Origin: Nitrospiria bacterium
GTDB taxonomy: Bacteria; Nitrospirota; Nitrospiria; Nitrospirales; UBA8639
Direction: 5' to 3'
Length of the DNA: 16,957 nt
NCBI GenBank assembly: GCA_030430725.1
Contig: JAUIKP010000016.1
Location: 1-16,957 of the forward strand
Below, piece after piece: positions 1,867-16,957 of the stretch. Under the pieces are notes generated by a model that was given only the letters and a program-made list of their open reading frames with translations, was not told the origin of the DNA and did no database searches. Made by a program: the position numbers and the translations under genes. Position 1 is the stretch's first letter. The number at the start of each line of letters is the position of its first letter.

Positions 1867-1957
1867 ACAATGCCGGTTGAACTCAAGGGAGCCTATCTCC
1901 AAAATTATAGTTTACAGATATCCATACCCTCTAATAAAAAAAGAAAAGGACTCGGGT

Positions 1958-2195
1958 ATACCTGTTGCCATGTTGACCGGCAAAACACATAACCCTTCCC
2001 AAAAAACATTCGGGAACAATAAAAAGCTACAACCCGGGGACCTGGTGCATTTTCTTGTCAAATCTGAATTGCGGGTTTCTGTTTAGACTGCCACCTCGGA
2101 TATCACAGTCATAAACGATCTGGTTCCTCACCCCAACCAACCATTTGCACTTAAAACCATACGGACAGCCATTAACCTCAGGAACCACCTTCGAG
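1958..2195 (+). pseudogene. Decayed copy of the AbrB/VapB-type antitoxin gene
   Basis: Read from 1958 (ATA where the intact gene has ATG), the translation aligns over its whole length with the intact antitoxin at 2593-2832. IPVAMLTGK parallels MPVATLTSK, KKLQPGDLVHFLV parallels LKLQPGDRVEFLV, and ATSDITVINDLVPHPNQP parallels VTSDVTILKGLIPKLKQP. A TAG at 2084-2086 interrupts it after 42 codons, the start codon is lost, and the Shine-Dalgarno region is degraded. Codon spacing is retained, so decay was by substitution. Weaker nucleotide similarity extends upstream to about 1918. Confidence 0.85.
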
Positions 2196-2198
2196 GAG

Positions 2199-2256
2199 TT
2201 TCAATACGATTGTGCTAGTCTGCAATCTCATCATAGACAATCCCGCTCACGCAGAA
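2199..2256 (+). pseudogene. Fragment of the PIN-toxin (VapC-type) gene, 5' end only
   Basis: The stretch aligns with the first 20 or so codons of the intact toxin at 2829. NTIVLVCNLIIDNPAHA here corresponds to DTNVLVRYLVQDDPAQS in the intact protein. The start is destroyed. From about 2257 the similarity to vapC stops and resumes with sequence matching the region just before 3287, so most of the toxin gene (roughly 2900-3262 in the intact copy) is deleted here. Confidence 0.75.
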
Positions 2257-2288
2257 AATGTTCCCACCCACACTTTCCTTCTGAAGAA

Positions 2289-2478
2289 TTAGGCTCCGCT
2301 TTCCCGAATGAGAATGGAGGCTAAATACGGTAGCGCCATTTCGGATTCGTCCACATGACGAAGGTCCGTAAGCCGCCCCTGTCTGGGAGGTCGGGTGGGG
2401 TCGTCTGGATAAAACCATCCTTCATTCCCCATCGAAAGCCAGGCTTTTTCTTTTTCCGTGGCGAGGGCGGCTCCATCA
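2289..2478 (-). pseudogene. Fragment of the 3' end of the M50 protease gene
   Basis: Strongly similar to the 3' part of the intact M50 gene (3287-3664), same orientation. The minus-strand reading ends ALPYLAS-ILIRESGA then TAA (2289-2291). The intact protein has ALPYLAS at 632-638 and ILIRESGA at 702-709, so exactly 63 codons are missing without a frame change. The joint falls on TGGAGGC (2315-2321), which occurs at both deletion borders in the intact copy (3313-3319 and 3502-3508). Similarity ends abruptly near 2478. There is no 5' part, so it cannot make the protein. Confidence 0.85.
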
Positions 2479-2536
2479 CACAGGACTCGTGGCTCAAAGG
2501 GCGTCGTGCGTCAGAAGCCTACCCACACAAATACAG

Positions 2537-2592
2537 TTGACAGAAATCCTTACTCTATAGTAAGGATTTAATATAAATGAAAGGAGGATGCC
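2537..2592 (+). promoter_or_regulatory. Probable vapBC promoter/operator and strong ribosome binding site
   Basis: A perfect inverted repeat with 10-base arms, AAATCCTTAC-tctata-GTAAGGATTT, lies at 2544-2569, 24 bases before the antitoxin ATG. AbrB-type antitoxins commonly bind such palindromes to repress their own operon, so this is a good operator candidate. A consensus-like TTGACA (2537-2542) overlaps its left edge; no well-spaced -10 is clear. AAGGAGG at 2581-2587, 5 bases before ATG 2593, is a near-perfect Shine-Dalgarno sequence. Confidence 0.6.
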
Positions 2593-2832
2593 ATGCCCGT
2601 TGCCACGTTAACCAGCAAAGGACAAATTACCCTTCCTAAGAAAATTCGAGAACAATTAAAACTACAACCCGGAGATCGGGTGGAGTTTCTTGTAGGGACT
2701 GATGGGCGAATTACCGTTTGGCCGGTGACCTCGGATGTCACAATTTTAAAAGGTCTGATTCCCAAGCTAAAACAACCGGTCACCCTTGAAGCCATGCGAG
2801 CTGCCATAAAGCAGCGAGGGGGCCAACCATGA
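2593..2832 (+). CDS. vapB: AbrB/MazE-type antitoxin (VapB-like)
   Basis: 79 residues. The N-terminal 45 residues are a typical AbrB/SpoVT swapped-hairpin DNA-binding domain: ATLTSKGQITLPKKIREQ followed by LQPGDRVEFLV. The C-terminal part (about 50-79) would wrap the toxin and carries the lysine-rich stretch ILKGLIPKLKQP. It is expected to neutralise the PIN ribonuclease encoded next and to repress the operon through the palindrome upstream. Its TGA overlaps the toxin ATG (ATGA at 2829-2832), so the two are translationally coupled. ATG 2593 is supported by the strong AAGGAGG. A degenerate copy lies 635 bp upstream. Confidence 0.88.
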   Translation: MPVATLTSKGQITLPKKIREQLKLQPGDRVEFLVGTDGRITVWPVTSDVTILKGLIPKLKQPVTLEAMRAAIKQRGGQP

Positions 2833-3227
2833 TAGGCCTCGATACGAATGTGCTCGTCCGCTATCTCGTCCAAGACGATCCCGCCCAATCCAAAGCTGCT
2901 ACGCAACTTATTGAGAAGCAATGCTCTCAGGAAAAACCCGGTTTTTTAAACCACTTGGTGCTGTGTGAAACGCTTTGGGTTCTTGAGGGCTGTTACCGCC
3001 AGACAAAAGAGACTCTCGTAAAAACCATCGAACAAGTATTGCGTGTCGCCCAATTACGAGTTGAAGATCCTCAGGTGGTCTGGCAAGCTTTGGACGATTA
3101 CCGAAAGAGCCGTGCCGATTTTGCCGACCATTTATTGAGCCGAATTAATGGTGGTCATGATTGCACCACGACTGTAACGTTTGATCGTGAGGCAGGGAAG
3201 TCTCCAGGATTTTCCTTGTTGCCGTAG
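2829..3227 (+). CDS. vapC: PIN-domain ribonuclease toxin (VapC-like)
   Basis: 132 residues, normal for VapC. It starts MIGLDTNVLVRYL, the hallmark of PIN domains, with D5 as first metal ligand. E47 (CETLW), D97 and D100 (RADFADHLL) and D119 (TFDRE) supply the remaining acidic residues expected to bind Mg2+/Mn2+ in the active site. VapC toxins cleave tRNA or rRNA; the target here is unknown. All acidic positions are present, so the toxin should be active. It overlaps the antitoxin gene by 4 bp and ends 59 bp before the convergent end of the M50 gene. A 5' fragment of a second copy lies near 2199-2256. Confidence 0.9.
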   Translation: MIGLDTNVLVRYLVQDDPAQSKAATQLIEKQCSQEKPGFLNHLVLCETLWVLEGCYRQTKETLVKTIEQVLRVAQLRVEDPQVVWQALDDYRKSRADFADHLLSRINGGHDCTTTVTFDREAGKSPGFSLLP

Positions 3228-3286
3228 CCGAAGAAAAGGCCACTCAACCTGGCGCCTCTCCCCAACCCCACGTTGCCACCTAACAA

Positions 3287-5416
3287 TCAGGCTCCGCTTT
3301 CCCGAATGAGGATGGAGGCCGCTTGTGCCCAGAGATGCCCCATCACACTTTGCCCATTGCCCTTCACATGGACCACCCCTCGCACCACCTGATTCCAGGA
3401 TGGACCCTTGTCCGTCACATCCAGCTCCACCCGGTACACGGAATGCTCGGGAATCAATTTGCCCCGCGCATCCTGGCGCACGGGCACACCTCCGGAATAG
3501 GTGGAGGCTAAATACGGTAGCGCCAGTTCGGATTCGTCCACATGACGAAGGTCCCGAAGCTGCCCCTGTCGGGCATGTCGCGTGGGGTCGTCCGGATAAA
3601 ACCATCCTTCATTCCCCACCGAGAGCCGGGCTTTTTCTTTTTCCGTGGCGAGGGCCAGCATCACGGATGGATGTTCCCCAATCACATGGGCCATTGCCAT
3701 GTCGGTATTCACCCATAAACCTGGATGAAGTGACGACGCCAGATCCGTGACCACGCCGGAGAACGGAGCACGCATGATCAAGTGGTCCCGGAGCGTAACC
3801 AGGCCGGCCAACGCCTTTCGCTCGCCCGCCAGCGTCTCCCAAATCACCAGATGATCATTCCGATCATCCTGATAGGCGACTTCTCGTTCCGCGCGCAATT
3901 CTAAGGCCGCAATGCGATGCCCGATAATATCAATCTGATGTTCCACCTGAGGCGACTGTAAAATTACAAGTGTTTGCCCATGTTCCACCCGATCTCCCTC
4001 CTCCACCAACACCTCCACCACCATTGCCGGAGCCGGCGGAAACATCGTCGTGCGTTCCGGAGCTTCAAGAATCGCGGGAATCTCCACTGTCGTATCCAAG
4101 GGCATCAGGCTCATGAGCAGACACCCCGTCAGTGCGATTCCGATTCCCCGCCCTCGCCAGGATTGGGTCACGGCCGCCCGACGTGTCCACCAGACCTGCA
4201 GCTCCTCATAGACCGGCCATGCCACAAACCAGCCTATTTCTACGAGAAAGAGGATGACGCCCAAGACCTTGAAAAAAAAGTAATACACCAGGACCGCAAT
4301 GCCAACGAACACGACGGCCCGGTAGACCCACACCGCCCACGCATAGGCGATCAGCACCGATTGACGTTGCGGGGGCATCTGTTCCGGAGGAGCATCTCCC
4401 CAGGCAAACAGCCATTCCCGTAATTTCCAACGACCAAACCCGAAGGCCCGTGATTGCAAATTCGGGACACCCAGCCAATCGGAGAGGACGTAGTAGCCGT
4501 CAAAACGGAGCAGCGGATTCAAATTGATCAACAACCCCGTGACCCAACTGGTGGTCGCCAAGACAAAGAGCATACTTTTGACAATGCCCTCAGGACAGAA
4601 ATTCCACAAAAAAGTCGCGAGCATCGCCACACTGAGTTCCACCATCATTCCCGCAGCGGCAATGGCCGCGCGTTGCTTCCGGACCGTGAGCCGCCAGGAG
4701 TCGGTCGTGTCGGTATAGAGGACAGGCACCATAATCAGGAACCCGAGGCCCATCGTGGGAACCCGGCACCCGTATCGAACGGCGGTATAGGCATGCCCCA
4801 GTTCATGCAAGATCTTAATGGCCACCAACCCGATGATATAACCGGCCATCCCTTGCAACGTAAAAAAGTATAAAAAGACATTGGCAAACGATACCCACTG
4901 CCGCACGACTCCCATACACCCGATCACACCCAATATAATCACACACCTTAAGGCCCAGCGACTAAACAGCGGAGTGACGAACGGAAGCGTTGCTCGCAAG
5001 AACCGGTCGGGGTTCCATAAGGGAATTCTGAAAAATAAATAGTTGTGAAGCACTCTCAGCAGCCAATGTTGTTTCGCCTGTTCGGCCTGCCCGAGGAACC
5101 CCTGACTTCCACCGGCTAAAGAATCCCGGGTTAAATTGTTCCGATAGAGAAACTGGATCAACTCCAGCACATTCCCGGTTGAGACCTTGGCCGAGGTGGT
5201 TCGGGTCACCAGATCCACCAGTCCTTCGGCCGTTCCCGCCTGCCAATGTGAAAGCAGTTGGAACTCGGCCCATTCAATTTGGAAAAATTGATTTCGAACC
5301 GTGTCCACGATCGTCCAGGTCGGGACGCCATCGGGCGTGGGGGTACCGGGCAGGATCTGAAGATCTTCACGCAAGAGAGGAAGGGGAACGTCTTCGTGAG
5401 GCTTTGGCCGACCCAT
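3287..5416 (-). CDS. M50-type membrane metalloprotease with PqqD-like N-terminus and HlyD-type C-terminus
   Basis: 709 residues. About 15-95 resembles a PqqD-like peptide-binding domain (NQFFQIEWAEFQLLSHWQAG, 42-61). A multi-helix membrane part follows (about 155-435) with the zinc motif HELGH at 204-208 and the third-ligand block NPLLRFDGYY (300-309, D306), as in site-2 protease/M50 enzymes. After a last helix (about 424-440) comes a periplasmic HlyD-type part with split lipoyl halves: APAMVVEVLVEEGDRVEHG (462-480) and APFSGVVTDL (550-559), around a coiled-coil region (about 490-545). The fold plan is that of 'putative peptide zinc metalloproteases' found beside secretion genes. Catalytic residues look complete. 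Inferred role: processing or docking of the exported giant protein in place of an ABC ATPase. Its ATG directly abuts the TAA of the upstream gene, with only a weak AGG, suggesting coupled translation. The alternative is a non-proteolytic adaptor. Confidence 0.9.
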   Translation of the reverse strand: MGRPKPHEDVPLPLLREDLQILPGTPTPDGVPTWTIVDTVRNQFFQIEWAEFQLLSHWQAGTAEGLVDLVTRTTSAKVSTGNVLELIQFLYRNNLTRDSLAGGSQGFLGQAEQAKQHWLLRVLHNYLFFRIPLWNPDRFLRATLPFVTPLFSRWALRCVIILGVIGCMGVVRQWVSFANVFLYFFTLQGMAGYIIGLVAIKILHELGHAYTAVRYGCRVPTMGLGFLIMVPVLYTDTTDSWRLTVRKQRAAIAAAGMMVELSVAMLATFLWNFCPEGIVKSMLFVLATTSWVTGLLINLNPLLRFDGYYVLSDWLGVPNLQSRAFGFGRWKLREWLFAWGDAPPEQMPPQRQSVLIAYAWAVWVYRAVVFVGIAVLVYYFFFKVLGVILFLVEIGWFVAWPVYEELQVWWTRRAAVTQSWRGRGIGIALTGCLLMSLMPLDTTVEIPAILEAPERTTMFPPAPAMVVEVLVEEGDRVEHGQTLVILQSPQVEHQIDIIGHRIAALELRAEREVAYQDDRNDHLVIWETLAGERKALAGLVTLRDHLIMRAPFSGVVTDLASSLHPGLWVNTDMAMAHVIGEHPSVMLALATEKEKARLSVGNEGWFYPDDPTRHARQGQLRDLRHVDESELALPYLASTYSGGVPVRQDARGKLIPEHSVYRVELDVTDKGPSWNQVVRGVVHVKGNGQSVMGHLWAQAASILIRESGA

Positions 5417-6862
5417 TTAGAAACCTAACGTTTGTCGAAGAACTCCGAGGGGGCGCCGGAAGAGATGGAAAAAGAGCGTGACCGGTTCCCCATAGATTTT
5501 GGCGGTGCCTTGCCAGCCGATTCGAATATCGTCAGGCGGGTCGATAAACTCGGCTTCCACCCGATAAGCCAGGACATTGGTCGGGAGAATACTCGCATGG
5601 TAACTCGCATGGAGTAATCGGGCAGGAATGGCTCGTAAGGGATTGGCATTTAAAAACACCTCAATCTCGGCCCCTTCCCGTAACACGATAGCGTCTTCCA
5701 CCGGTAGATCAATTTTCAATTCAAACTTCTGGGGATCGGCCACTTCCATAATACGTTCGCCCACCACCACCGGCTTGCCGATCCATTCGGATTTATCTGT
5801 GAAAATCACGATACCCGCCTGGGGAGCTTTAACCTCCACTTGCTGTAACATGTCCCAGGCGTAATCCCGTTCCGCTTCCTTCAGCCGGACTTCCGAGGCT
5901 TGCACGGGCATGCCCGCACCGGTGTCATGGTCAACAAAGGCGCCCTGCGACACTTTGCGATACTCCATCCAGGTGACGGACAGATTCTTTTCCGCCACTT
6001 CAAATTGATTCCGGAATGTGGTGTCCTCATAGCGAAAAAGCGTTTGCCCCGTCTGAACCAGGGTATTCGGGTGGACGAGGATTTCTCCCAGCACCCCATC
6101 CAAGGGGGCCGTCACCACCGACGGATCCCGGGGCACCACTTCCACAGGAGCCAGCGTGGACAATCGCACGGGCAGCCACATGGCGGCCATCACGACCACC
6201 AGTACTCCCCATAGCCAGTTCTTGAGCACCTTCCAGTTTGTGACTCTCCGTTTCGTGCCCCCAAGCGCCTGCCAGGCATGAGCCACCGTTTCGGCAAACC
6301 GCCGGACCAATTGCACTTCCCCATCTTTCCAGGGGATCTCCCTGGTCAACCACAAGCCACCAATCACCTGCTGATCGGCGCGGATCAATGGACACCAGAG
6401 GACATGTGGAAACGCAAAGAACTTCCAATCACGTTGGAGTTCTGTCGAACAATGAGTGGAGGAGAGAGGACGGGAATCTTTGAGGCTGCCTTGTTCCCAT
6501 AATTCTGAAATGACGCGTTCAATCCAAGTGATCATCGGCGCATTGCGGTCAACCACGGCCACACTGGACACCGCTTCCACCCTGCCCCGCATCCGCCCTT
6601 TCGGCGTGATGGAAAAAATACAGGCTTGTCGAAAGTCCACGAGACGCCGGGTCTCATTGGCCAGCAGAAAACAGAGTTCTTTCACCGTTTGGGCCTTGCG
6701 AACCTGACTTTCCAGTTGAAGCAGCGCCAGGAAGATACTTGAATCTTTTTCCGTTTTGACCTTGGACGCGATGGAAGGGGCGCCGGCCAGACCGGAGGAG
6801 GGTCTAAAGTCCTTCCCGGTCCCTCGCGAAGGGGACTCTGTCTGGGTTGCTGTGTGCATCAC
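5417..6862 (-). CDS. GAF-domain and HlyD-type adaptor hybrid, inner-membrane anchored
   Basis: 481 residues. The first 40 are low-complexity. About 45-200 looks like a GAF domain (SSIFLALLQLESQVRKAQTV, then VLWCPLIRADQQVIGGLWL at 154-172), placed on the cytoplasmic side. One transmembrane helix follows (about 213-231, LKNWLWGVLVVVMAAMWLP). The rest is a periplasmic membrane-fusion part: lipoyl half DPSVVTAPLDGVLGEILVHP (246-265), a short helical hairpin (about 283-340), second half VEVKAPQAGIVIF (342-354), then a beta-barrel-like region (375-460). It would couple a cytoplasmic sensor to the channel; the GAF ligand is unknown. GTG 6862 is listed as start because AGGAGG lies 9-10 bases upstream; ATG 6859, the next codon, is equally possible. 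The stop abuts the M50 start. A hairpin precedes the ribosome binding site. Confidence 0.88.
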   Translation of the reverse strand: MMHTATQTESPSRGTGKDFRPSSGLAGAPSIASKVKTEKDSSIFLALLQLESQVRKAQTVKELCFLLANETRRLVDFRQACIFSITPKGRMRGRVEAVSSVAVVDRNAPMITWIERVISELWEQGSLKDSRPLSSTHCSTELQRDWKFFAFPHVLWCPLIRADQQVIGGLWLTREIPWKDGEVQLVRRFAETVAHAWQALGGTKRRVTNWKVLKNWLWGVLVVVMAAMWLPVRLSTLAPVEVVPRDPSVVTAPLDGVLGEILVHPNTLVQTGQTLFRYEDTTFRNQFEVAEKNLSVTWMEYRKVSQGAFVDHDTGAGMPVQASEVRLKEAERDYAWDMLQQVEVKAPQAGIVIFTDKSEWIGKPVVVGERIMEVADPQKFELKIDLPVEDAIVLREGAEIEVFLNANPLRAIPARLLHASYHASILPTNVLAYRVEAEFIDPPDDIRIGWQGTAKIYGEPVTLFFHLFRRPLGVLRQTLGF

Positions 6863-6879
6863 GCTCGTTTCCCTCCTTT

Positions 6880-6901
6880 GGATCCACAGAGAGGTGGATC
6901 C
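6880..6901 (-). promoter_or_regulatory. Intercistronic hairpin before the GAF-HlyD gene
   Basis: A perfect inverted repeat GGATCCAC-agagag-GTGGATCC fills most of the 48-bp gap between the adaptor gene and the GAF-HlyD gene. In the minus-strand transcript the stem stands about one base upstream of the AAAGGAGGG ribosome binding site (about 6871-6879). It has no T-run, so it is more likely an mRNA processing or stability element, or a translation modulator, than a terminator. Confidence 0.5.
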
Positions 6902-6910
6902 GGGAAGGAG

Positions 6911-7768
6911 TTAAGGTTTGGCAGTTTGTTTACTCGTGGACGTCGGTGAGGCTAAAGGCTTCGTGCTTGGCGTAAATGTTGATTGCGTGGGAAACGTGCC
7001 TTCCGGAAATTTCGCGCTTCCACTCATACCGGCTAAGACACCTGTGGGATGTTTGTGAAATCGGCCAAAGACCCGAATGGTTTGACTTACAGGATCAACA
7101 CGAGGACCAATTTCCACCACTTCCGCCGAATAGTCCTTTTGAGTCTCATCGATACTAAATGAAAACGGACTATTCTTGGCGATCCACCGTAGAGAAGACG
7201 ACGGCAGAATCAGTTCAATATCCAGATCCTGATTACTGACAATACTCACTAGATCATCGTACGGATTCACACTTTCATAGGGGTGCACCAACGTCTTGAC
7301 CACATGTCCGGCAAAAGGGGCTGGAATCCCGCAACCTTGAACAATCACTTGTGCTCTGGTGAGAACCGCCCGGGCCTTTTTTAATTCGGCCTGGGAGATG
7401 TCCACTTCCAACCGGCCAATCCCGTGAAGAGCGGCCAGCTCCTCGTTATTGATGACAGTCTTTTGCCTTGCGTCCAAATCCGCTTGGGCGGCCGATAATT
7501 CCGCGCGGTATTTGGCACATTCAAATTCAACAAGGATGTCGCCCTTATTAAATGCGTCCCCGTCTCGAAACGGCATCCGCTTCACTAACGCCTGGATTTC
7601 ACTGGCCAGCACCGCTTCAACGACAGGTTTCACGATACCCCGAATCGTCTGAAGATCCGATGAGGGCAAACTACTGCGACCTCCGCTTTTTGCCACACTG
7701 ATGCTCCAAGTCAGCACGACCAGACTCAGGACCAAACACAGAATAGTGATAGGGTGTCGATGTATCAT
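6911..7768 (-). CDS. Periplasmic HlyD/RND-type adaptor subunit
   Basis: 285 residues. An N-terminal hydrophobic signal (about 8-26, ILCLVLSLVVLTWSISVAK) directs export; it has no lipobox, so it is either cleaved or kept as an anchor. Residues about 45-86 form the first lipoyl half (VVEAVLASEIQALVKRMPF, then GDAFNKGDILVEFEC). About 87-145 is a helical hairpin rich in Ala/Glu/Lys, and APFAGHVVKTLVHPYESVN (about 151-169) is the second half. The beta-barrel part ends near 255 and is followed by a Thr/Ser/Pro-rich tail. This is a small member of the membrane-fusion family, expected to bridge the inner-membrane parts and the TolC-type channel. ATG 7768 overlaps the TGA of the outer-membrane factor gene by 4 bp. 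The Shine-Dalgarno sequence is the GAGAGAG just upstream, inside that gene. Confidence 0.88.
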   Translation of the reverse strand: MIHRHPITILCLVLSLVVLTWSISVAKSGGRSSLPSSDLQTIRGIVKPVVEAVLASEIQALVKRMPFRDGDAFNKGDILVEFECAKYRAELSAAQADLDARQKTVINNEELAALHGIGRLEVDISQAELKKARAVLTRAQVIVQGCGIPAPFAGHVVKTLVHPYESVNPYDDLVSIVSNQDLDIELILPSSSLRWIAKNSPFSFSIDETQKDYSAEVVEIGPRVDPVSQTIRVFGRFHKHPTGVLAGMSGSAKFPEGTFPTQSTFTPSTKPLASPTSTSKQTAKP

Positions 7769-9546
7769 GGATTAACTCTCTCTTGGTGTTGAGTGGTTGT
7801 CTCTTGGGATTGCGCGATAGTGTCTTGAGATTGGGCTTCAGGCTCTTGAGATTGCGCGCCAGTCTCTTGGAGTTGGGCCTCAGGTTCTTGAGATAGCGTG
7901 CCAGTCTCTTGGAGTTGGGCTTCAGATTTCTGAGATACCGCGTCAGCCTTTTGGGTTTGCCCGACCGTCTCTTGGGATTGAGGCTCGGTCCCTTGGGATT
8001 GAGTGGTTGGCGGTTGAGTTTGAACGTCAGTTGGATGAACCTGCGCGAAAACCTCGGGGCGTTCAAGCCATTCCCAACGTTCTTGCAAGGCCACGGCCAG
8101 TTCTTCGACCCCGTCTCCCGTGATGTCCGTGGGGAAGGGGTCTTCTCCAATCGCGGCTAACACATTGGCATAGGCCATTTCCAATTTGGCCAGTGCCGAT
8201 TCATACCGTAATTCAGCGACGAGGCCTTGCATTTTTTCCCGGATGACCAGATGCTCACTGAGCCGGTTCAGGGACCAGGCACGCTGGACCTGTTCGGCAA
8301 TAGCCATTTGGGTCTCGAGGTAGCGCTTTCCCGTAGCCGCATCCTTCATAGCCGCATGATATTGCGCCACCGACACATGGACTTGACTCATCAGAGCCAT
8401 CGTCAACGCCAGGCTTTGCATGTCCAATACTTTCTCTTGAGCGTCAATGACCTGTAAGCGGACGGGGTGCCGGAACACATTCAACAGATTCCAGCTGATT
8501 TTGGCTCCGTAATTCAGCCAATTATTATGAAACAGAAAGTTGTTGCTATCGTAATTGCCCCCCATATACACATTGAGGTTGGGGAGCAATTCCAGAATGG
8601 CGGCTTTGGTTTCTTTGGCGTTTATACGTTTTTGGTAGTCGACCTTTCGCAGTTCAGGACGATTCATGAGTGCACGGTATTCCAAATCTTCCAGCTTCTC
8701 GGAGACCTTCGATTCGAGGAGTGGATGTTCCGGCACCGCCAATTCATAGGGCTCACCGGGATCCAGATTCATGAGTTCGGCAAGGTGAATTCTGGATAGC
8801 GATAATTCCTGATACAGCTGTTGAATTTCCCGTTGCGCGCTCAGAAGTTCCCGTTCATATTGTAGTGAAGTAAGTGGATCCGCCAGGGCCCGTTCTCGGA
8901 TCTGATGGACTTCACCCAGCGCTTGGTTCACCCAATCCTGAAGAAACGCCAGGCGACCCAACGCCCGTTCCGCTCCCACGGCCTTCCAAAAAGCTGAACG
9001 GACATCCTGAATAACCCGATTGGCAATGCGACGTTTATCTTCTTCCGCAATGAGCACGTCGTTAGCCGCTTGCTCGGCCCTGACATAGGACAGTCCAAAA
9101 TCCAGCACATCCCAGCTTAAGGCTAAATTGGCCGTGTAAATATTCTTGTCAGAAGACGTGGAGGATACGAGGGATTGTTGACCTGTTTCTAACGACTGGC
9201 TGCTCGCTCCCGCAAAGTTGCTGCGTCCATTATAGGCCGCATTCGCCACCACTTTTGGCAGCATATCGTAATGCGCCAGATCCAGTTGGCGATGCGTGAC
9301 CATTTCCTTCAATCCCTGGACCCGCGTTTCCAAATTATATTTCAACGCCCGCGCCATCGCTTCATACAGCGTGATGGGGCGAGCCACGGGTTCCTGAAAG
9401 TGCGTGAGTTGAGCCAGGTCCTCTTGGACCCGCTGTTGAATCTCGTCCTGCGTGAGTGGAGTAGGCATAACGGCACAACCGGAGTCCAGCAGAGCCAATC
9501 CCATCACCACCACACCGATCAGAATTTTTTGAACCTGTAGTCCCAT
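7765..9546 (-). CDS. TolC-family outer-membrane efflux/secretion channel with Gln-rich heptad tail
   Basis: 593 residues from ATG 9546 (an in-frame TTG at 9573 would add nine; neither start has a clear Shine-Dalgarno sequence). The N-terminus MGLQVQKILIGVVVMGLALL is a signal peptide, followed by DSGCAV, which may be an atypical lipobox (Asp at -3 is unusual). The body has two TolC-type repeats of long amphipathic helices (ARALKYNLETRVQGLKEM; later ALMNRPELRKVDYQKRINAK) with beta-strand segments such as LSWDVLDFGLSYVRAEQ and KISWNLLNVFRHPVRLQ. ANVLAAIGEDPFP near the C-terminal end of the body is characteristic of the family. The last 86 or so residues are an unusual Gln/Ser/Glu-rich tail of about twelve seven-residue units, absent from ordinary TolC proteins. 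First gene of the minus-strand operon, divergent from the giant protein gene. Confidence 0.9.
   Translation of the reverse strand: MGLQVQKILIGVVVMGLALLDSGCAVMPTPLTQDEIQQRVQEDLAQLTHFQEPVARPITLYEAMARALKYNLETRVQGLKEMVTHRQLDLAHYDMLPKVVANAAYNGRSNFAGASSQSLETGQQSLVSSTSSDKNIYTANLALSWDVLDFGLSYVRAEQAANDVLIAEEDKRRIANRVIQDVRSAFWKAVGAERALGRLAFLQDWVNQALGEVHQIRERALADPLTSLQYERELLSAQREIQQLYQELSLSRIHLAELMNLDPGEPYELAVPEHPLLESKVSEKLEDLEYRALMNRPELRKVDYQKRINAKETKAAILELLPNLNVYMGGNYDSNNFLFHNNWLNYGAKISWNLLNVFRHPVRLQVIDAQEKVLDMQSLALTMALMSQVHVSVAQYHAAMKDAATGKRYLETQMAIAEQVQRAWSLNRLSEHLVIREKMQGLVAELRYESALAKLEMAYANVLAAIGEDPFPTDITGDGVEELAVALQERWEWLERPEVFAQVHPTDVQTQPPTTQSQGTEPQSQETVGQTQKADAVSQKSEAQLQETGTLSQEPEAQLQETGAQSQEPEAQSQDTIAQSQETTTQHQERVNP
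7774..8025 (-). repeat. 21-bp tandem repeat encoding a (xQxQExx)-type heptad tail
   Basis: About twelve degenerate seven-residue units in a row, for example TQSQGTE, PQSQETV, AQLQETG, TLSQEPE, AQSQEPE, AQSQDTI, AQSQETT and TQHQERV. Glutamine at the fourth position is essentially invariant and the second is usually Gln. The DNA period is 21 bp, with some neighbouring units nearly identical (AQLQETG twice), so copy number may vary between strains. Confidence 0.85.
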
Positions 9547-10328
9547 AGATAATAAAATGCACGATCCAGCCAATCCAATTTATTTGCGCACTGATCTCAT
9601 GACCACAAGCACTCGGGTGCGGATTGTCACCACCCGAATGACTGCGCTGATCGGCATGTCGAATCTTCCGCAAATCAAGTCGGTCTATCCTTCCGGGCCC
9701 TTCGACCATTTCTGTTCACAATAGAAAACGGAACGCCCCCCTTTGCAGCTTTCCAGTTCTGTTTCTCGGTTTTTCTTATGTCAAGATTAGCTAACGGGCA
9801 TTTTTTCTATGTTCATTTCTTGCCCGGGCACAAAACAAAAGGCAACAACTTCACTCAACTTCTTTCACCGTCATATGTTGACCGCCATGGCAACCCCAAA
9901 AATATTTTTCACATCCACCTCATTTTTCCCTTAAGTCTTGTCTTCATTATCCTTATGAACCAGATCCACCGGATTTTATTGTCAATGACTGTTTGATCCC
10001 CGGACCGCCTCTCGTTCCCAAACCCGTTCTCGCCCTCAAACCCCTAAAAATCCAGATAGGAAAATTTTTCCTTATTTCTTCCAGTAAATAAAGCTGGTGA
10101 CCGAATAAGGAGGTAGCTCATACCGTGGGAATGCGTCAAAGGAAACAACAAGATGTCAGATGTGTCATGAGAGTTTAATGGAGATCATGGCTGCTGGTGA
10201 AACACCGAAGAAAGAATCGCGTCATCAAGATAGGTTCGTGAAGTCAGGTGAATCACCCCAATCAGTTGAAATACCTGAAAGAAAAAACGTCTGCGCCACG
10301 ACTCACTGGCACGAGGAATCGCATTGCA
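9547..10328. promoter_or_regulatory. Long divergent intergenic region between channel operon and giant-protein gene
   Basis: About 780 bp separate the two divergent units, so both promoters must lie here. I see no convincing protein gene: the open frames at 9778-9996 (72 codons) and 10160-10369 (69 codons) look non-coding. Visible structure: a stem TCGGGTG (9613-9619) with CACCCGA (9631-9637), and an AT-rich palindrome AGGAAAA-T-TTTTCCT at 10058-10072. The region 9780-10080 is pyrimidine- and AT-rich compared with the flanking genes. No sigma-54-type promoter or known riboswitch core was recognised. Confidence 0.5.
10107..10178 (+). other. Strong Shine-Dalgarno sequence with a possible 15-codon leader ORF
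   Basis: AAGGAGGT (10107-10114) is a full match to the anti-Shine-Dalgarno sequence. It is followed by a GTG at 10125 and an in-frame ATG at 10131, giving the short peptide MRQRKQQDVRCVMRV before TAA at 10176-10178. This lies about 150 bases ahead of the giant gene's ATG. It could be a leader peptide, an orphan ribosome-docking site, or chance. Confidence 0.3.
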
Positions 10329-13300
10329 ATGAAAACTCTGTTAGCACTCGAACCCAGAATCCTCTTTGATGGGGCGGCCCTCGTCACCGGGGCAGAAGTG
10401 GCCCAGGACCAGACCTCCCAGGATCAATCTATGCCGGGAACCGATACCGATGCGGCTAATAATTCCGGTGAACCTATGGCCAGTGCCCATGAAGCCGATT
10501 GGGCCGACAGTTTGTTACTTGCCGCCCCCACGCCATCCGATCATCGGGAAATGGTCTTCATCGATACGCGGGTTGAGGATTATCAGACCCTCATGAAAGG
10601 TATCCATCCAAGCGCGGAAGTCATTCTTCTGGATGGGGGGCGGGACGGACTTGAACAAATTGCCGAGGTGCTCAAGGGCCGGAATGCTGTGGATGCCATT
10701 CATCTCATTGGAGAAGGCACCGAAGCGGAACTGCATTTAGGCACGGCCTTTCTCACCAATGATTCGATCAGCAATCACTATGCAGCGTTGTTGAGTCAGA
10801 TCGGGCAGAGTTTGTCTGCCGACGCCGATCTGTTGATCTATGGCTGTACCTTTGGACGCGGTCAGGCCGGCTTCTCGGCGATCCAAACCCTAGCCGAACT
10901 GACAGGGGCTGATATTGCCGCGAGCACGGACCGGACCGGGCACGTCAGCGAATATGCCAACTGGGAATTGGAAGTAGCAACCGGGGTCATTGAAACGTCG
11001 GTCGTCATTGGCGAAGCCACCCAGGAAGCCTGGGAGGGTGTGCTGGCCACTTTTACCGTGACCAATACCAATGACGCCGGAGCGGGGTCACTCCGCCAGG
11101 CCATCATCGACGCGAATGCCGCACCGGGAACCGACACCATCATCGTGCCGATCGGCACATACCTCTTAACGACCGGTCAACTGCAGATCGATGACAACGT
11201 GATCATCACCGGTGCCGGCGCAGCCAATACCATTATCGATGGCAACGCAAACGGCCGGGTATTTGAGACGCGGGGAAGTAGCACAACCACCATGAGTGGA
11301 ATCACCATTCAAAACGGTTCGGCAAGTAACAATGGAGCCGGTGTGTATGTGAACAATTCCAGCATTCTGAATCTCAGCGATGCCAGGTTAACGAATAACG
11401 ACGGCACGGGTGGCGACGGCGGCGCCTTTCATGTGCATGGCACGCTGAATCTTAACCGGGTCCTCATTGATAATAATTTGGCCGATAAGGGCGCCGGGAT
11501 TTATTTTCATGGAGCCGTTGGGGGTTCTCTGACCAACGTCACAATCAGTGGCAATACTGCGGTCAACGAAGGAGGCGGGATCTGGACAGAAAACCCGATC
11601 ACGATCATGAATTCAACAATTGCCTTCAACACAGCACCCATTGGCGGAGGCGTGTATGACAAAAACGGCATGGAGATCACTCTCACCAATTCGATTCTCC
11701 ATAATCCAGGATCACCGAATAGTTTTGGCACGTTAATCTCGGGTGGGAACAATATCGATAGCGATGGCACGGCGGGATTGGGAGATCCGTTGGACGGCCA
11801 GGACCCCATGTTGGGTGGTCTGGCAGACAACGGGGGGCCGACCTGGACCCATGCGCTCCTGGCGGGCAGCCCGGCCCTCAACGCGGGCACGACATCCGGC
11901 GCACCTGCCGTCGATCAACGGGGACTGACCCGTGATGCCGCACCGGATATCGGCGCGTACGAATATAAGTCCTCCGCTTTTGTCTCGAAAAATGAATTCA
12001 TGGTCAACGCTCCTTCCGGAGACAACGAAATGATGAGCGGCCCGCTACGCGGGGCAGAGCGGGCGGTGGATATCGCCCCGAACGGCGACTATGTGGTGGT
12101 GTGGACGAACGGCACGTCCAACGACAAAGTGTATGCCAAAGTCTTTGACGCCAGCGGCAATCAGAAAGTCGCACAATTTCAAGTCAATATTGGTGGTGGT
12201 ACCAACAATTGGACAGATGTGGCCGTAGACGACAGCGGGAATTTCGTCATCACCTGGACGCAAGGAAACGAGGTGTTCATGCGTCGGTTCCTGGCCAACG
12301 GCACCGCCGTCGACGCCGGAGACGTGATGGTCAACACTGGCACGGCCAACACTCAACAAAACCCGTCCGTCAACATGAACGGTAACGGCAATTTCGTGAT
12401 CGCCTGGGAAGGCGATGGCGGCGGCAACGAAGGGATCTTCGTGCGGCAGGGCACCTTTGGCGGTGGGTTGGTCGGCAGCGACATCACTGTCAACACGGCC
12501 ACTGCTGCGAAGGACCCGTCTGTGGGCATTGACGATTCGGGAAACTTCGTCGTCGTGTGGGATAACGGGTCGGACGTGTTCTTTCAACTCTACAACAACG
12601 CGGGCGTTCCCCAAAACAGCGGGCAGGTTGACGTGATCTTACAGGCCAGCGCGGGCGGCGCGGCGGTGGATATGAGCGGCGACGGCCGGTTCACGGTAGC
12701 CTATCGCGCTACCGTTCTGGATGTGGATGTCTACGTCAGGCAATTCGATGCAACGGGCAACTCGCTATTCCTCCCGAAAACTGTCAACACCACGACACTC
12801 TTGACCACACAAACCAATCCCTCGGTCACCATGGACGATATTGGTGAATTCATCGTCGTCTGGGAGGGCACCGGCAACCAGCCGGGACAGGTTGACGGTT
12901 CGGGGGTCTTCGGTCAAAAGTTCAACGCCGGCGGTCAAAAAATCGGATTTGAGTTTTTAATCAATCAAACCACCGCCAACACCCAGGACCGTGCCTCGGT
13001 GGCCATGCTGGACCGGGACAACTTCGTGGCCGTGTGGACCGGCAGCGACGGCGCCCAAACCGATATTTTTGCCCGCCAATTCGGGAGTACAGCCACCCCA
13101 ACGCTGGACCTTGATGTGAATAACAGCAGTGGAGCTTTAGACAATGATTATGCCTTCACCTTTACCGAGGACGACGGCCCCACGGCCATTGCCGACAGCG
13201 ATACCGACCTGGCGGATGGGGACAGCACAACGTTCGCCTACGTGACCCTGTCCGTCAGCGGCCTGCTGGACGGCAATGCGGAGGTCCTGATCCTCGACGG

Positions 13301-16088
13301 CGATACCTTTGCCCTGGCTACCGACGCGCCAGGGCAGGACACTTCCGGCGGCAACTACCATGTCCGCGTGTCCACGGCTGCCGGTACGGCGATCGTCAGC
13401 ATCATTAAGCAGGGCGGGGGCACCTTTAGCGAAGCGGAGGTAGAAACGCTGATCAAAGCCATTCAATACCAGCACACGGATACGGACGCTCCCACCGACG
13501 GGAACCGGCTGATCGAGATAAGGGTGAACGACGGCACCACGGACAGTGCCGCCGCCCGCACCACCATCAATGTGGATCCGGTCAATGACCAGCCGACTGC
13601 CACGATTAGTCCGGTATCCTACGGAATGAATGAAGATGACACGTTCAGGCCTTTAGGCGGAGTGAGCGTTTCAGACAGTGATTCCGGAGCGAATGTCATT
13701 TCTGTCACCCTGTCTGTGAATGACGGCATTCTGAGATTGGTGACCACAACCGGCCTCACCTTTACCGGCGGGGCGAACGACAGTGCCACGATGACTGTCA
13801 CCGGCACCACGACCAATCTCAATAATGCATTGGCCACGCTTATGTACCAACCAAACGCGGATTTTGACGCCTCTGATCTGCTGACCTTGAGTGTTGATGA
13901 TTTGGGCAACACGGGTGGTGGGTCTCTTACCCACATGGATACGGCCACTATCACGGTTACTCCCATCAATGACCCGCCGGTGGTGGATCTTGATGCTAAT
14001 GACAGTTCCGGGGCCACCATCAACGACTATGCGGTTACCTTTACCGAAGGGGGCGTGCCCATTGCCATCGGCGACATCGACACGGATGTGGTCGACCCGG
14101 ACAATACCACCTTCGCCTATGTGAAACTGGGCGTGAGCGGTCTGCTGGACGGCAATGCCGAGACGCTCGTGCTCGACGGCGACACCTTTACTCTGGCGAC
14201 CGCCGTGGCCGGACAGGACACCACCGGCGGAAACTATCATGTGATGCTCGCCACCGGGGCCGGAACAGCCACTGTCACAATTACCAAACAAGGAGGCGGG
14301 ACATTTACCGAGGCCGAGACGGAGACCTTGATCCAGGCGATTCAGTACCAGCACACGGATACGAACGCTCCCACCGATGGAAACCGGTTAATCGACGTCT
14401 ATGTCAACGACGGCACGGCAGACAGCGCGGCCGCACGAACGACCATCAACGTCGATCCCGTCAATGATCCCCCGGTTGCCGTGGGGGACGGTTTTATCGT
14501 CAACGAAGGGTCGACCACCCGGCTGAACCTTTCCAACAATGACAGCGATCCGGATGACGCGTTGGATCTGACCAGCATCACGATTGTCTCCGGCCCCGCC
14601 AATGGCATCATCACGAGCATTAATTCCGATGGGTCGGTGGATTATACTCATAACGGCTCCGAAACCCTCTCTGATAGTTTCACCTATACGATCCGGGATC
14701 TCTCCGGCCTCCCCTCGAATACGGTCACGGTGGACGTGACCGTGGCCCCGGTCAACGATCCCCCCACAGCAATAGCCGACAGCTTCACCGTCAACGAGGG
14801 ATCCACGAATACGCTGAATCTTTCCAACAATGATACCGATCCGGATGACGCGTTGGATCTGACCAGCATCACGATTGTCTCCGGCCCCGCCAATGGCACC
14901 ATCACGAGCATTAATCCCGATGGGACGGTGGAGTATACTCATAACGGCTCCGAAACCCTCTCTGATAGTTTCACCTATACGATCCGGGATCTCTCCGGCG
15001 CCACATCCAATCCCATCAGAGTGGACGTGACCGTGACCCCGGTCAACGATGCTCCCGTCATCACCTCCGATGGAGGAAGTGCCACCGCCAATATTTCCGT
15101 GACCACCGGCACTGCGGCGGTGACGGATGTGCATGCCACAGATGCAGAGAACAATCCTCTGACCTACAGCATTGTAGGCGGTGTCGATGCGGCGTTATTC
15201 ACCATCGATCCCGCGACCGGGGTCCTGACATTCATCACCGCTCCGGATTTCCAGGCACCTGGCGATGTCGGAGCCGATAACATCTATGACGTGATCGTCC
15301 AGGTCTCCGATGGCACAACCGTCGATACGCAGGCCATCGCCGTCACGGTGACCCAAGCCAATGTCCCGCCCCAAATTTTTATTCCCCCTCCCCCACCGGA
15401 TCCTGCGCCCTCATCCGATCCCCCACCTAGAGAGGCCGGGGAAGACACTTCGGAGGACCAGGCGCCGGGCAATGGGGGCAGTCTTGATCCCGGCTCGCCA
15501 GGGAATATCCCTGACGGCGGCCAGGGCTCCACCATCACAAACGCCAAAAATTCCGTAACGGAGAATTCGCCGGGACGACAGGAATTGCCCGCTAAGCAAG
15601 AGGATGAAGCTCGCACGGGCCTCGTGGGGATAGTGAGTGACATGTGGAGTGTGCTCAGGAAGCCCCTAGATATCACAGGCTTCAAGGATGAAATCCGGTC
15701 TTTATTGACGAAGTCGAGATTTCTTCAGGATCTGGATCGCGTCCGCGACAATGTTCAGGAGGTCGCGGACACGGAACAAACCTATTTGGCCTCCAGCATT
15801 GCGGTCTCCACCGGATTGTCGATCGGCTATGTCGTCTGGCTCCTGCGTAGCGGCGTGCTATTGACGGCCCTGCTTTCGTCGGTGCCGGCCTGGCAGTTTG
15901 TGAACCCCCTGTTGGTGCTGGATGCCGCGGGGAAAAAGAAACGACAACAGGGGCAGAAAGGCGTGGACGGCGATTCGGTGGAGTCCCTGTTTGAGAAACC
16001 CACCGCATCTGCCGAGATGGGTGAGGAGAAGACCGGGGCCGCCGCTAAAACCCTTCGAGCCCGGTGGTTCCATTGGAATAAGGGATGA
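10329..16088 (+). CDS. Giant multidomain envelope protein (LEPR-type N-terminus, DUF4347, beta-helix, propeller, cadherin/Ig-like repeats, C-terminal membrane hairpin)
   Basis: 1,919 residues from ATG 10329, chosen because GAGG lies 12 bases upstream; a GTG at 10248 would add 27 basic residues. Order: LALEPRILFDGAA (5-17), the N-terminal signature of large 'LEPR-XLL' proteins; DUF4347 (about 75-240, YGC at 171-173); a right-handed beta-helix of the choice-of-anchor-Q type (about 241-547, TNTNDAGAGSLRQAI, ending PDIGAYEY); seven FVVVW-type repeats (about 551-920), probably a beta-propeller; repeat A1, a different Ig-like unit, repeat A2, repeats B1 and B2, and a cadherin-like unit, mostly joined by PVNDxP (about 925-1680); a Pro-rich linker (IPPPPPDPAP); and a C-terminal part with two hydrophobic segments (about 1819-1864, SIGYVVWLLRSGVLLTALL), then a basic polar tail. 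No Sec signal, RTX repeats or sortase motif. Likely adhesin or surface-contact protein exported by the divergent operon. ATGA overlap with the PAS gene. Confidence 0.88.
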   Translation: MKTLLALEPRILFDGAALVTGAEVAQDQTSQDQSMPGTDTDAANNSGEPMASAHEADWADSLLLAAPTPSDHREMVFIDTRVEDYQTLMKGIHPSAEVILLDGGRDGLEQIAEVLKGRNAVDAIHLIGEGTEAELHLGTAFLTNDSISNHYAALLSQIGQSLSADADLLIYGCTFGRGQAGFSAIQTLAELTGADIAASTDRTGHVSEYANWELEVATGVIETSVVIGEATQEAWEGVLATFTVTNTNDAGAGSLRQAIIDANAAPGTDTIIVPIGTYLLTTGQLQIDDNVIITGAGAANTIIDGNANGRVFETRGSSTTTMSGITIQNGSASNNGAGVYVNNSSILNLSDARLTNNDGTGGDGGAFHVHGTLNLNRVLIDNNLADKGAGIYFHGAVGGSLTNVTISGNTAVNEGGGIWTENPITIMNSTIAFNTAPIGGGVYDKNGMEITLTNSILHNPGSPNSFGTLISGGNNIDSDGTAGLGDPLDGQDPMLGGLADNGGPTWTHALLAGSPALNAGTTSGAPAVDQRGLTRDAAPDIGAYEYKSSAFVSKNEFMVNAPSGDNEMMSGPLRGAERAVDIAPNGDYVVVWTNGTSNDKVYAKVFDASGNQKVAQFQVNIGGGTNNWTDVAVDDSGNFVITWTQGNEVFMRRFLANGTAVDAGDVMVNTGTANTQQNPSVNMNGNGNFVIAWEGDGGGNEGIFVRQGTFGGGLVGSDITVNTATAAKDPSVGIDDSGNFVVVWDNGSDVFFQLYNNAGVPQNSGQVDVILQASAGGAAVDMSGDGRFTVAYRATVLDVDVYVRQFDATGNSLFLPKTVNTTTLLTTQTNPSVTMDDIGEFIVVWEGTGNQPGQVDGSGVFGQKFNAGGQKIGFEFLINQTTANTQDRASVAMLDRDNFVAVWTGSDGAQTDIFARQFGSTATPTLDLDVNNSSGALDNDYAFTFTEDDGPTAIADSDTDLADGDSTTFAYVTLSVSGLLDGNAEVLILDGDTFALATDAPGQDTSGGNYHVRVSTAAGTAIVSIIKQGGGTFSEAEVETLIKAIQYQHTDTDAPTDGNRLIEIRVNDGTTDSAAARTTINVDPVNDQPTATISPVSYGMNEDDTFRPLGGVSVSDSDSGANVISVTLSVNDGILRLVTTTGLTFTGGANDSATMTVTGTTTNLNNALATLMYQPNADFDASDLLTLSVDDLGNTGGGSLTHMDTATITVTPINDPPVVDLDANDSSGATINDYAVTFTEGGVPIAIGDIDTDVVDPDNTTFAYVKLGVSGLLDGNAETLVLDGDTFTLATAVAGQDTTGGNYHVMLATGAGTATVTITKQGGGTFTEAETETLIQAIQYQHTDTNAPTDGNRLIDVYVNDGTADSAAARTTINVDPVNDPPVAVGDGFIVNEGSTTRLNLSNNDSDPDDALDLTSITIVSGPANGIITSINSDGSVDYTHNGSETLSDSFTYTIRDLSGLPSNTVTVDVTVAPVNDPPTAIADSFTVNEGSTNTLNLSNNDTDPDDALDLTSITIVSGPANGTITSINPDGTVEYTHNGSETLSDSFTYTIRDLSGATSNPIRVDVTVTPVNDAPVITSDGGSATANISVTTGTAAVTDVHATDAENNPLTYSIVGGVDAALFTIDPATGVLTFITAPDFQAPGDVGADNIYDVIVQVSDGTTVDTQAIAVTVTQANVPPQIFIPPPPPDPAPSSDPPPREAGEDTSEDQAPGNGGSLDPGSPGNIPDGGQGSTITNAKNSVTENSPGRQELPAKQEDEARTGLVGIVSDMWSVLRKPLDITGFKDEIRSLLTKSRFLQDLDRVRDNVQEVADTEQTYLASSIAVSTGLSIGYVVWLLRSGVLLTALLSSVPAWQFVNPLLVLDAAGKKKRQQGQKGVDGDSVESLFEKPTASAEMGEEKTGAAAKTLRARWFHWNKG
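13104..13595 (+). repeat. 164-residue repeat A, copy 1, in the giant gene
   Basis: Encodes LDLDVNNSSGALDNDYAFTF through to INVDPVNDQP. It is the same length as copy 2 (13983-14474) and closely similar in protein sequence (shared SGLLDGNAE, LDGDTF, KQGGGTF, AIQYQHTDT and APTDGNRLI). The DNA has diverged noticeably, so the duplication is not recent. Predicted extracellular beta-sandwich of the cadherin-like class. Confidence 0.85.
13983..14474 (+). repeat. 164-residue repeat A, copy 2, in the giant gene
   Basis: Second copy of repeat A, separated from the first by a 129-residue unrelated Ig-like unit (13596-13982). It ends in the linker NVDPVNDPP that recurs between the following units. Confidence 0.85.
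14475..15056 (+). repeat. Tandem 291-bp repeat B (two copies) in the giant gene
   Basis: Two head-to-tail units of 97 codons, 14475-14765 and 14766-15056. Over the middle (about 14551-14700 versus 14842-14991) the DNA is almost identical, including silent positions, encoding LDLTSITIVSGPANG and YTHNGSETLSDSFTYTIRD. The family is the Ig-like/cadherin-like repeat common in large bacterial adhesins. Confidence 0.9.
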
Positions 16089-16957
16089 ACATTCTTTCGA
16101 CAAAATCTCGTCTGGCTTTCGGCCAGGTCAGTCTCCTTATCAGTGTGTTGCTGGCAGCAAGCTTGTGTGGTCTGATGCCGGACCGAACCGGAGCGGTTCG
16201 CCAGGGACGTGCGGCTCTGGCCGAATCCATAGCGGCCAATAGTACGATCCTAATTACCCAGGAAGATGTTGACCGCCTGGAGGGGATTTTACAGTTAGTC
16301 GTGGACCGTAACCCAGACCTATTGTCTGCCGGATTGCGAACTGAATCGGGTGATTGGCTTGTCACGATAGGTGACCATGAGAACCATTGGCGGGACAACA
16401 ATTCAGACTATTCATCCAATACCCAGGTGACCGTCGCTATCTGGGAAGGGGAAGACAAATGGGGCCAGGTCGAACTGCGGTTTACACCGTTAAGTAACGA
16501 AGGCTGGCTCGGGTACATCACCGGCCCACAACCACAACTTCTGTTGTTTGTGGGTCTGATGTGTTTCATCGGATTTTATCTGTATTTGGGAAAAATGTTG
16601 AAGCAACTCGATCCCTCACAGGCTGTTCCTGAGCGTGTGCGATCCGCTCTGGATACGATGGCGGAAGGACTCCTGGTGCTCGACAACAAAGGGCAAATCA
16701 TGCTGGCCAATCGGGCCTTTGCCACATTGTTGACCAAGACGCCTGAAGCGCTCTTGGGTCAAGCGGTCGAAGCGTTTCCCTGGTCGGACATCGAAGGCCA
16801 TCCGTTGGCACCGGGGACACACCCCTGGCACATCGCATTGAATTCGGGAGAGGCGCAAAAGAACGAACGCGTCCGATTGACTCTGTCCGACGGCAGACGG
16901 CTGACGTTCATGATTAACTGCTCCCCTATCCTTGGCAGCGGGGCCAAAAATGTCGGG
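16085..16957 (+). CDS. Membrane sensor protein with PAS domain (3' truncated by window end)
   Basis: 291 codons are visible from ATG 16085 to the window edge, in an open frame without a stop. It begins MNILSTKSRLAFGQVSLLIS. One membrane helix lies at about 13-31, an extracytoplasmic domain at about 32-150 (not a recognised family), and a second helix at about 151-172 (LLLFVGLMCFIGFYLYLGKML). A PAS domain starts near 185: ALDTMAEGLLVLDNKGQIML then NRAFATLLTKTPEALLGQ. The output module (histidine kinase, GGDEF/EAL or other) lies beyond the window. The start overlaps the stop of the giant protein gene (ATGA, 16085-16088), implying coupled expression and a shared function, probably sensing the state of the giant envelope protein or the surface it contacts. 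Confidence 0.88.
   Translation, partial: MNILSTKSRLAFGQVSLLISVLLAASLCGLMPDRTGAVRQGRAALAESIAANSTILITQEDVDRLEGILQLVVDRNPDLLSAGLRTESGDWLVTIGDHENHWRDNNSDYSSNTQVTVAIWEGEDKWGQVELRFTPLSNEGWLGYITGPQPQLLLFVGLMCFIGFYLYLGKMLKQLDPSQAVPERVRSALDTMAEGLLVLDNKGQIMLANRAFATLLTKTPEALLGQAVEAFPWSDIEGHPLAPGTHPWHIALNSGEAQKNERVRLTLSDGRRLTFMINCSPILGSGAKNVG

Follow-up and report, generated by a model that had tools for sequence, protein, structure and literature searches.

How would a giant repeat-rich protein leave the cell when the genes beside it encode an outer membrane channel and its adaptors, and no ATP-binding cassette (ABC) transporter? The question is raised by a stretch of DNA from a Nitrospiria bacterium, contig JAUIKP010000016.1, positions 1-16957 (16,957 nt, here called the window), whose assembly comprises 3.5 Mb in 551 contigs and is 83% complete. 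The locus is probably a class I RRE-M50-HlyD system together with its cargo, i.e., a system for the leader-guided export of giant proteins, in which the RRE domain of a membrane protease fusion would bind the leader, the M50 domain would process it, and HlyD and TolC parts would form the conduit. The features of the window are as follows.

3287..5416, minus strand: M50-HlyD protein, an RRE-M50-HlyD fusion, 709 aa (Pfam/NCBIfam, AlphaFold2 model, alignment)
5117..5416, minus strand: RRE/PqqD-like domain by predicted fold, aa 1-100 of the M50 protein
4793..4807, minus strand: M50 zinc motif HExxH, aa 204-208 (alignment)
4496..4525, minus strand: second M50 motif NxxPxxxxDG, aa 298-307 (alignment)
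5417..6862, minus strand: GAF-like region, one transmembrane segment (aa 212-230) and HlyD adaptor, 481 aa (family scan, relatives aligned)
6911..7768, minus strand: periplasmic adaptor with a hydrophobic, Sec-like N-terminus, 285 aa (Pfam/NCBIfam)
7765..9573, minus strand: TolC-family outer-membrane factor with lipobox, 602 aa, likely start ATG 9546 (family scan)
10248..16088, plus strand: giant DUF4347/cadherin/Ig protein, the likely cargo, 1,946 aa, likely start ATG 10329
10347..10379, plus strand: LExR leader motif LEPRILFDGAA
10551..11045, plus strand: DUF4347 domain, the sole match found in the 83% complete assembly
15804..15917, plus strand: near-invariant hydrophobic C-terminal block of Nitrospira giants, GYVxWLLRSGVLLTALLSSVPAWQFVNPLLVL
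16085..16957, plus strand: membrane PAS protein, truncated at the window end (PAS-GGDEF in relative L097)

The four minus-strand genes are closely spaced, with an overlap at 7765/7768 and abutting ends at 5416/5417. The DUF4347 giant and the PAS gene, which overlap each other, are on the plus strand and divergent from the genes for TolC, adaptor, GAF-HlyD and M50-HlyD. The first-pass annotation of this DNA had described such a divergent, packed arrangement, and reading frames and family scans place the genes where it had put them.

The M50-HlyD protein, whose closest relatives are found in Nitrospira and other Nitrospirales, displays both motifs of an M50 (site-2) protease, HExxH and NxxPxxxxDG, in its membrane domain, and scores 33.6 bits with PF02163 (cut-off 27.2). 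Residues H204, E205, H208, N298 and D306 are kept in all 62 aligned M50-HlyD proteins, the window protein included, and PF02163 matches all 62 at E≤0.01. In an AlphaFold2 model (pLDDT 85.8, pTM 0.65), the HlyD part resembles the MacA, MexA and EmrA folds by structure comparison. The N-terminal domain was folded alone, because the 50 matches listed for the whole model were adaptor or biotinyl-domain structures. A fold search was needed, since a sequence profile of this domain gave no match among PDB sequences. The domain is modeled as the three-strand, three-helix winged RRE fold that binds leaders of ribosomally synthesized and post-translationally modified peptides (RiPPs). Thus the earlier suggestion of an M50-PqqD-like protein is strengthened by the predicted fold of its N-terminal domain.

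The remaining minus-strand genes provide the TolC-family channel and HlyD-family adaptors of type I secretion. The TolC/OEP protein is recognized at E 2.2e-27, and its start is more likely ATG 9546, which gives a lipobox-like LLDSGC; a long Gln/Glu/Ser-rich low-complexity tail forms its C-terminus (7765-8100). The small adaptor scores over the cut-offs of HlyD_3, HlyD_D23 and TIGR01730, and its best match is to adaptors of the resistance-nodulation-division (RND) type. The GAF-fused adaptor of the first-pass annotation stands with respect to its HlyD part (HlyD_3, E 2.4e-12). Its GAF region is a weak match in the window protein (18.8 bits, cut-off 22.4) and in class I generally, where 4/32 aligned GAF-HlyD proteins match at E≤0.01, whereas the one protein scanned from a sister class, class II, shows a strong match (GAF_3, E 2.7e-11).

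The giant protein has a DUF4347 domain (E 1e-50), cadherin/Ig repeats and an N-terminal LEPRILFD motif. Its start is more likely ATG 10329, because GAGGAA is found upstream and the motif has offset 6 in homologues P0121 and P0123-P0129; from this start the N-terminus reads MKTLLALEPRILFDGAAL. The LExR motif is found in 33/33 DUF4347 reading frames of class I loci that have a readable N-terminus. A strict pattern (LE[PSQR]R, two residues, F/Y/L, then D, 8 to ~115 residues after the called start) fits 31 of these, the other two showing LEPRVVYD and LEPRLMLD. Shuffled N-termini give an expectation of 0.0, and 2/641 other reading frames fit. Three giants that were unread when the motif was defined all carry it: LESRQLFD on an E. 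coli plasmid, LEARYMFD in Variovorax, and LEPRLLLS in a Mesorhizobium class II locus. The NCBI LEPR-XLL model (NF012209) scores the window giant at 15.2 bits, under its cut-off of 17, and L086 at 14.3, with no match to L016; similar motifs are known from Planctomycetota. A plain Sec signal was considered for LExR and set aside on account of low hydrophobicity: a 19-residue Kyte-Doolittle mean of at least 1.5, the one measure used, is reached by 0/33 giant leaders vs 47/67 adaptor N-termini.

The C-termini of the giants differ between lineages. Nitrospira giants close with a hydrophobic block, whose strict pattern is present in 44 of the 48 homologues that have the region, and then a basic stretch. 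Most proteobacterial giants are without a C-terminal transmembrane segment by hydropathy, and a short [FLM]xxQ[LMV] tail is found in 27/43, compared with 54/608 other reading frames, 25/331 in a further control and 3.9/43 in shuffled sequences; the tails themselves were the source of the pattern, and the 43 loci do not include the window or L016-L021, where the giants have other ends. Pfam and NCBIfam scans revealed no match to an RTX family in the window giant.

Relatives of the operon were compared at 88 loci: the best 80 of 558 confirmed relatives, with one genome per species, seven plasmid loci and the window. Most extend at most ~10 kb on each side. The order TolC, adaptor, GAF-HlyD, M50-HlyD on one strand is found in 61/88 loci, from Nitrospirota and Proteobacteria, and in 54 of the 68 that have at least 5 kb upstream of the M50 gene; 12 of the 14 exceptions have no same-strand TolC match at the threshold used. 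In 63/88 loci a repeat-rich reading frame of at least 450 aa is no more than 1 kb from an operon gene; its position is often downstream in Nitrospira, often upstream in proteobacteria, and divergent in the window. Carriers include Nitrospira, Azospirillum, rhizobia, Burkholderia, Variovorax, Pectobacterium, Serratia, Pseudomonas, sulfate reducers and single cells of Pelagibacteraceae. Among complete E. coli genomes, 24/5,426 match the last three operon genes, and 21 of the 25 places are on plasmids. The recurrence of the four-gene order and the LExR motif across two phyla is more than chance.

The operon and DUF4347 also occur together across genomes, as a check proposed in the first-pass annotation had envisaged. 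Class I M50-HlyD is found in 35 and DUF4347 in 37 of 245 Nitrospirota genomes (both 34, operon only 1, DUF4347 only 3, neither 207), and in 77 and 94 of 398 Pseudomonadota genomes (70, 7, 24 and 297, respectively). Fisher p values are 5e-37 and 1.6e-48, uncorrected for shared ancestry. Classes were split by score, class I having at least 520 bits, with the exception of G584, which was counted as class I despite a split gene. Genomes with class II alone have DUF4347 in 0/6 Nitrospirota and 4/11 Pseudomonadota. It should be noted that the discordant genomes speak against a one-to-one link: 3 Nitrospirota and 24 Pseudomonadota have DUF4347 without detected class I, and 1 and 7, respectively, have class I without DUF4347.

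Three further observations concern individual loci. In Variovorax (L007) the operon is preceded by a giant gene of 48.7 kb and followed by a type II secretion cluster. Genes labeled "tail fiber protein" are found near the operon on plasmids of Azospirillum, Burkholderia and Kosakonia (L006 206-874, L009 1-80, L011 18128-20235). On the Magnetospirillum plasmid pMSR-1 (L012 8502-9980), the gene before the operon encodes a 492-aa ELWxxDGT protein whose start has no leader, and which is perhaps a cut-down giant.

Important for the mechanism is the energy source. No ABC transporter is present among the eight window proteins scanned with Pfam and NCBIfam, in keeping with its reported absence, and none is consistently linked in relatives. 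A type I secretion system (T1SS) type of ABC protein (≥500 aa, >100 bits) is found in 3/88 loci (729, 700 and 518 aa); when short and weak matches are counted, any ABC reading frame is found in 12/88. The conserved ABC linkage that might have undone the earlier proposal was thus not encountered. Genome-wide, 50 carrier genomes of 65 first chosen were surveyed, with the best 13-22 candidates per genome scored. Three NCBI T1SS ABC exporter families pass their cut-offs in 11, 19 and 24 of these, and jointly in 37/50, leaving 13/50 with none over cut-off. Among the 13, G011, G023 and G046 hold near-full-length HlyB-like matches under cut-off. The other 10 have no long HlyB-like match either; they include the single-contig chromosome G005, the isolate draft G025, incomplete metagenome-assembled genomes (MAGs), single cells and the window's own 83% assembly. 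Thus many genomes could use an ABC protein in trans, but a general need for one is unlikely. Transporters of the RND type and of the major facilitator superfamily (MFS) are likewise absent from the eight window proteins and from the annotated operons, although they were not searched systematically and unlinked genes were not searched; MFS genes are present in the flanks of L008, L009 and L011.

A different motor is suggested by the sister class. Class II M50-HlyD proteins (~280-370 bits in genome scans) share the RRE-M50-HlyD core with class I, and in a tree of 71 M50 proteins a branch with 99% SH-aLRT support sets class I apart, the long-branch outlier L137 falling on the class I side. Class II operons, found in Nitrospirota and Pseudomonadota, e.g., a Mesorhizobium with a giant gene of 31.5 kb, encode a SecA-like protein, mostly of 650-700 aa, together with GAF-HlyD, adaptors and, where one was observed, an OEP channel; a repeat-rich giant is usually present as well. 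A Pfam scan of one such protein gave SecA_DEAD at E 6.9e-101 and P-loop_SecA at E 7.2e-54; NCBIfam SecA models score that of L107 at 609 bits, under the cut-off of 814. Most SecA-like proteins have the DEAD motif, and a Walker A regular expression gave nothing useful. The SecA-like gene is present in 30 of the 32 loci of the class II clade, 29 by phmmer and L125 by profile, the two without it being L128 and L132. L127 and L135, without a full-length M50 reading frame, are outside the tree, and L133 and L134 are outside the 32. The latter two form a third deep M50-HlyD branch with an OEP gene (and in L133 also an adaptor), and the short contigs seen have no SecA-like gene. SecA-like matches on Variovorax and Pseudomonas plasmids have no M50 operon beside them and were set aside as unrelated. 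The class II operon of Mesorhizobium has a DUF3467 gene between giant and adaptor (L103 3488-3793).

Class I loci have no SecA-like reading frame; a single SecA is found in 46/50 class I genomes, and the window's own assembly also has one. Thus a dedicated SecA paralogue of the accessory Sec kind is absent from class I and present in 30/32 class II loci. The leaders of class II cargo are related: LExRxLL(A/S) is found in most of those with a readable N-terminus. A motif is seen in L095/L107 (LEARVLLAGD), L111 (LEPLEGRVLLAAD), L112, L113, two reading frames of L115 (e.g., LESLEPRLLLSAT), L128 (LEPRLLFS) and the Mesorhizobium giant named above. In a repeat reading frame of L100 the motif is missing and the start uncertain. 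Because most class II giants are cut before the N-terminus, a leader rate cannot be given. The LEPR-XLL model scores three class II cargo proteins at 25.1, 28.3 (both over the cut-off) and 14.7.

From these parts we infer leader binding, cleavage, transport and an energy source. The giant would be synthesized with an N-terminal leader that contains LEPRILFDGAA and is not of the Sec type. This leader would be bound by the RRE domain of M50-HlyD, presumably in the cytosol, and the chain thereby delivered to the membrane, where the M50 site would cut or otherwise process the leader. A conduit that takes the unfolded giant to the surface would be made up of the small adaptor, TolC and the HlyD domains of both the M50 and GAF-HlyD proteins. 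Class I loci revealed no dedicated ATPase, and energy would most likely come from the cell's own SecA/SecYEG, the proton-motive force, or both, by analogy with class II. The best case for RRE-M50 and leader acting together is that two deep classes have a common core and related leaders. The suggestion of a SecA-type motor behind the chain comes from class II; for class I it is no more than an extrapolation. A broader proposal is put forward tentatively, as somewhat short of an even chance: a widespread, unnamed secretion system in which RRE-M50-HlyD selects giants by their LExR leader and a SecA-type motor feeds them to a TolC conduit, class II with its own SecA and class I with housekeeping Sec or the proton-motive force. 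The first-pass annotation had put forward a distinct export or display route; its independence of a dedicated ABC transporter is supported by the 3/88 loci and 13/50 genomes above, but transport itself is not established.

Other explanations for the gene set should also be considered. M50 proteases are known chiefly for intramembrane proteolysis, and the four-gene complex may serve in maturation, retention or release of a giant that crosses the envelope otherwise, as a LapG/LapD-type or regulated intramembrane proteolysis module. The PAS-GGDEF gene that follows the giant in relative L097 would suit such a role, but a TolC channel with three adaptor-type proteins exceeds the needs of a protease module, the N-termini of the giants lack Sec-like hydrophobicity, and the sister class has a SecA-like motor. 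Window proteins scanned gave no match to LapG or LapD (genomes were not searched), and this explanation is considered rather unlikely. Alternatively, M50 would cut the hydrophobic C-terminal segment of the giant and so release it from the inner membrane. The near-invariant block and basic stretch of the Nitrospira giants (44/48) are consistent with this. Most proteobacterial giants beside the same M50 have no C-terminal transmembrane segment, and often the [FLM]xxQ[LMV] tail instead (27/43 vs 54/608), whereas RRE and leader are common to both lineages despite their differing C-termini. C-terminal anchor cutting was therefore rejected for cargo as a whole, and this explanation appears improbable.

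The giant could also be an ordinary type I substrate, energized by an unlinked T1SS ABC protein with the adaptors and TolC as its partners. TolC and HlyD-type adaptors are indeed T1SS parts, at least one T1SS ABC protein passes its cut-off in 37/50 carriers, and an LEPR-XLL giant carrying RTX has been reported from Vibrio. Nevertheless 85/88 loci, mostly reaching ~10 kb or less on each side, lack a T1SS-type ABC protein of 500 aa or more; no such protein passes its cut-off in 13/50 carriers, and in 10 of these, among them G005 and G025 but also incomplete MAGs, single cells and the window's own assembly, there is no long HlyB-like match either; and the window giant has no RTX match. A type I route is thus judged unlikely. 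Very improbable is the view that the four genes serve ordinary efflux or peptide export and have nothing to do with the neighboring giant. The RND-type best matches of the adaptor, the membership of RRE domains in RiPP pathways and the 25/88 loci without a repeat-rich reading frame within 1 kb would fit it, but operon and DUF4347 co-occur in two phyla, the operon is adjacent to a repeat-rich frame in 63/88 loci, and no RND or MFS gene is found inside annotated operons (no systematic search was made for RND, MFS or precursor peptides). Leader-guided export by the class I RRE-M50-HlyD system is thus retained as the probable explanation of the locus.

The role in sensing that had been proposed on the basis of the PAS protein is not established. 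Relatives of the window PAS gene were encountered in Nitrospira loci alone (L016, L017, L020). In the nearest relative the gene encodes PAS-GGDEF, which, beside the Nitrospira giant, hints at control by cyclic di-GMP and is not part of the general system. Downstream of the window M50 gene are a PIN-domain (VapC-like) reading frame (2829-3227) and an HDOD gene (469-1368). In relative L096/L097 the interval from M50 to HDOD holds a PAS-GGDEF gene and a further DUF4347 giant, thus the window appears to be without a second giant. Rfam and tRNA scans of the window gave no match.

If the proposal is correct, DUF4347/LEPR giants, a common class of surface proteins with one linked gene of 48.7 kb, would gain a machine, a signal and a mechanism, and the LEPR-XLL motif would be explained. 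An ABC transporter would no longer be obligatory for giant proteins that leave through TolC, and one pathway would join SecA-type motors and intramembrane proteolysis to leader recognition of the RiPP type. The system is found on plasmids and in environmental species under laboratory cultivation, Azospirillum brasilense and Magnetospirillum gryphiswaldense being examples with a class I operon.

Among known systems, type I secretion (HlyB/HlyD/TolC, or LapBCE for LapA-like adhesins) similarly has a TolC channel, HlyD-type adaptors and giant, repeat-rich, adhesin-like cargo with an N-terminus that is not Sec-like. However the dedicated ABC transporter that goes with HlyD and TolC parts in type I secretion is absent, no ABC ATPase being conserved in the operon; RRE-M50-HlyD and GAF-HlyD are extra parts; and the cargo has an N-terminal LExR leader. 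Type I cargo has a C-terminal secretion signal, usually linked to RTX; the window giant has no RTX match, and proteobacterial giants often have a different short tail. Excerpts of a review (PMC8277102) name ABC, RND and MFS transporters as the energized partners of such conduits. The inner-membrane transporter of RND/MFS tripartite efflux is absent from the window and from annotated operons. RiPP and bacteriocin exporters with leader peptidases (PCAT/C39; YydH/LiaK, daptide M50) likewise combine an RRE/PqqD-like fold with a protease, and the NCBI daptide M50 model scores the window protein at 151.5 bits, under its cut-off of 300. Here, however, the likely cargo is ~2,000 (window) to 16,000 (Variovorax) residues long, the protease is fused to HlyD, and no ABC exporter is linked. 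As in accessory Sec (SecA2), the class II SecA-like ATPase adjoins giant repeat proteins with a special N-terminal motif, but OEP/HlyD parts and RRE-M50 are added, and a SecA-like gene is missing from class I loci, the window among them. Searches of the open-access PMC literature (subscription journals were outside the scope) yielded no description of the operon or gene combination. The NCBI LEPR-XLL domain (NF012209) covers the same N-terminal motif region as in the operon cargo; that model names the motif only, whereas here the motif is tied to an export-like operon.

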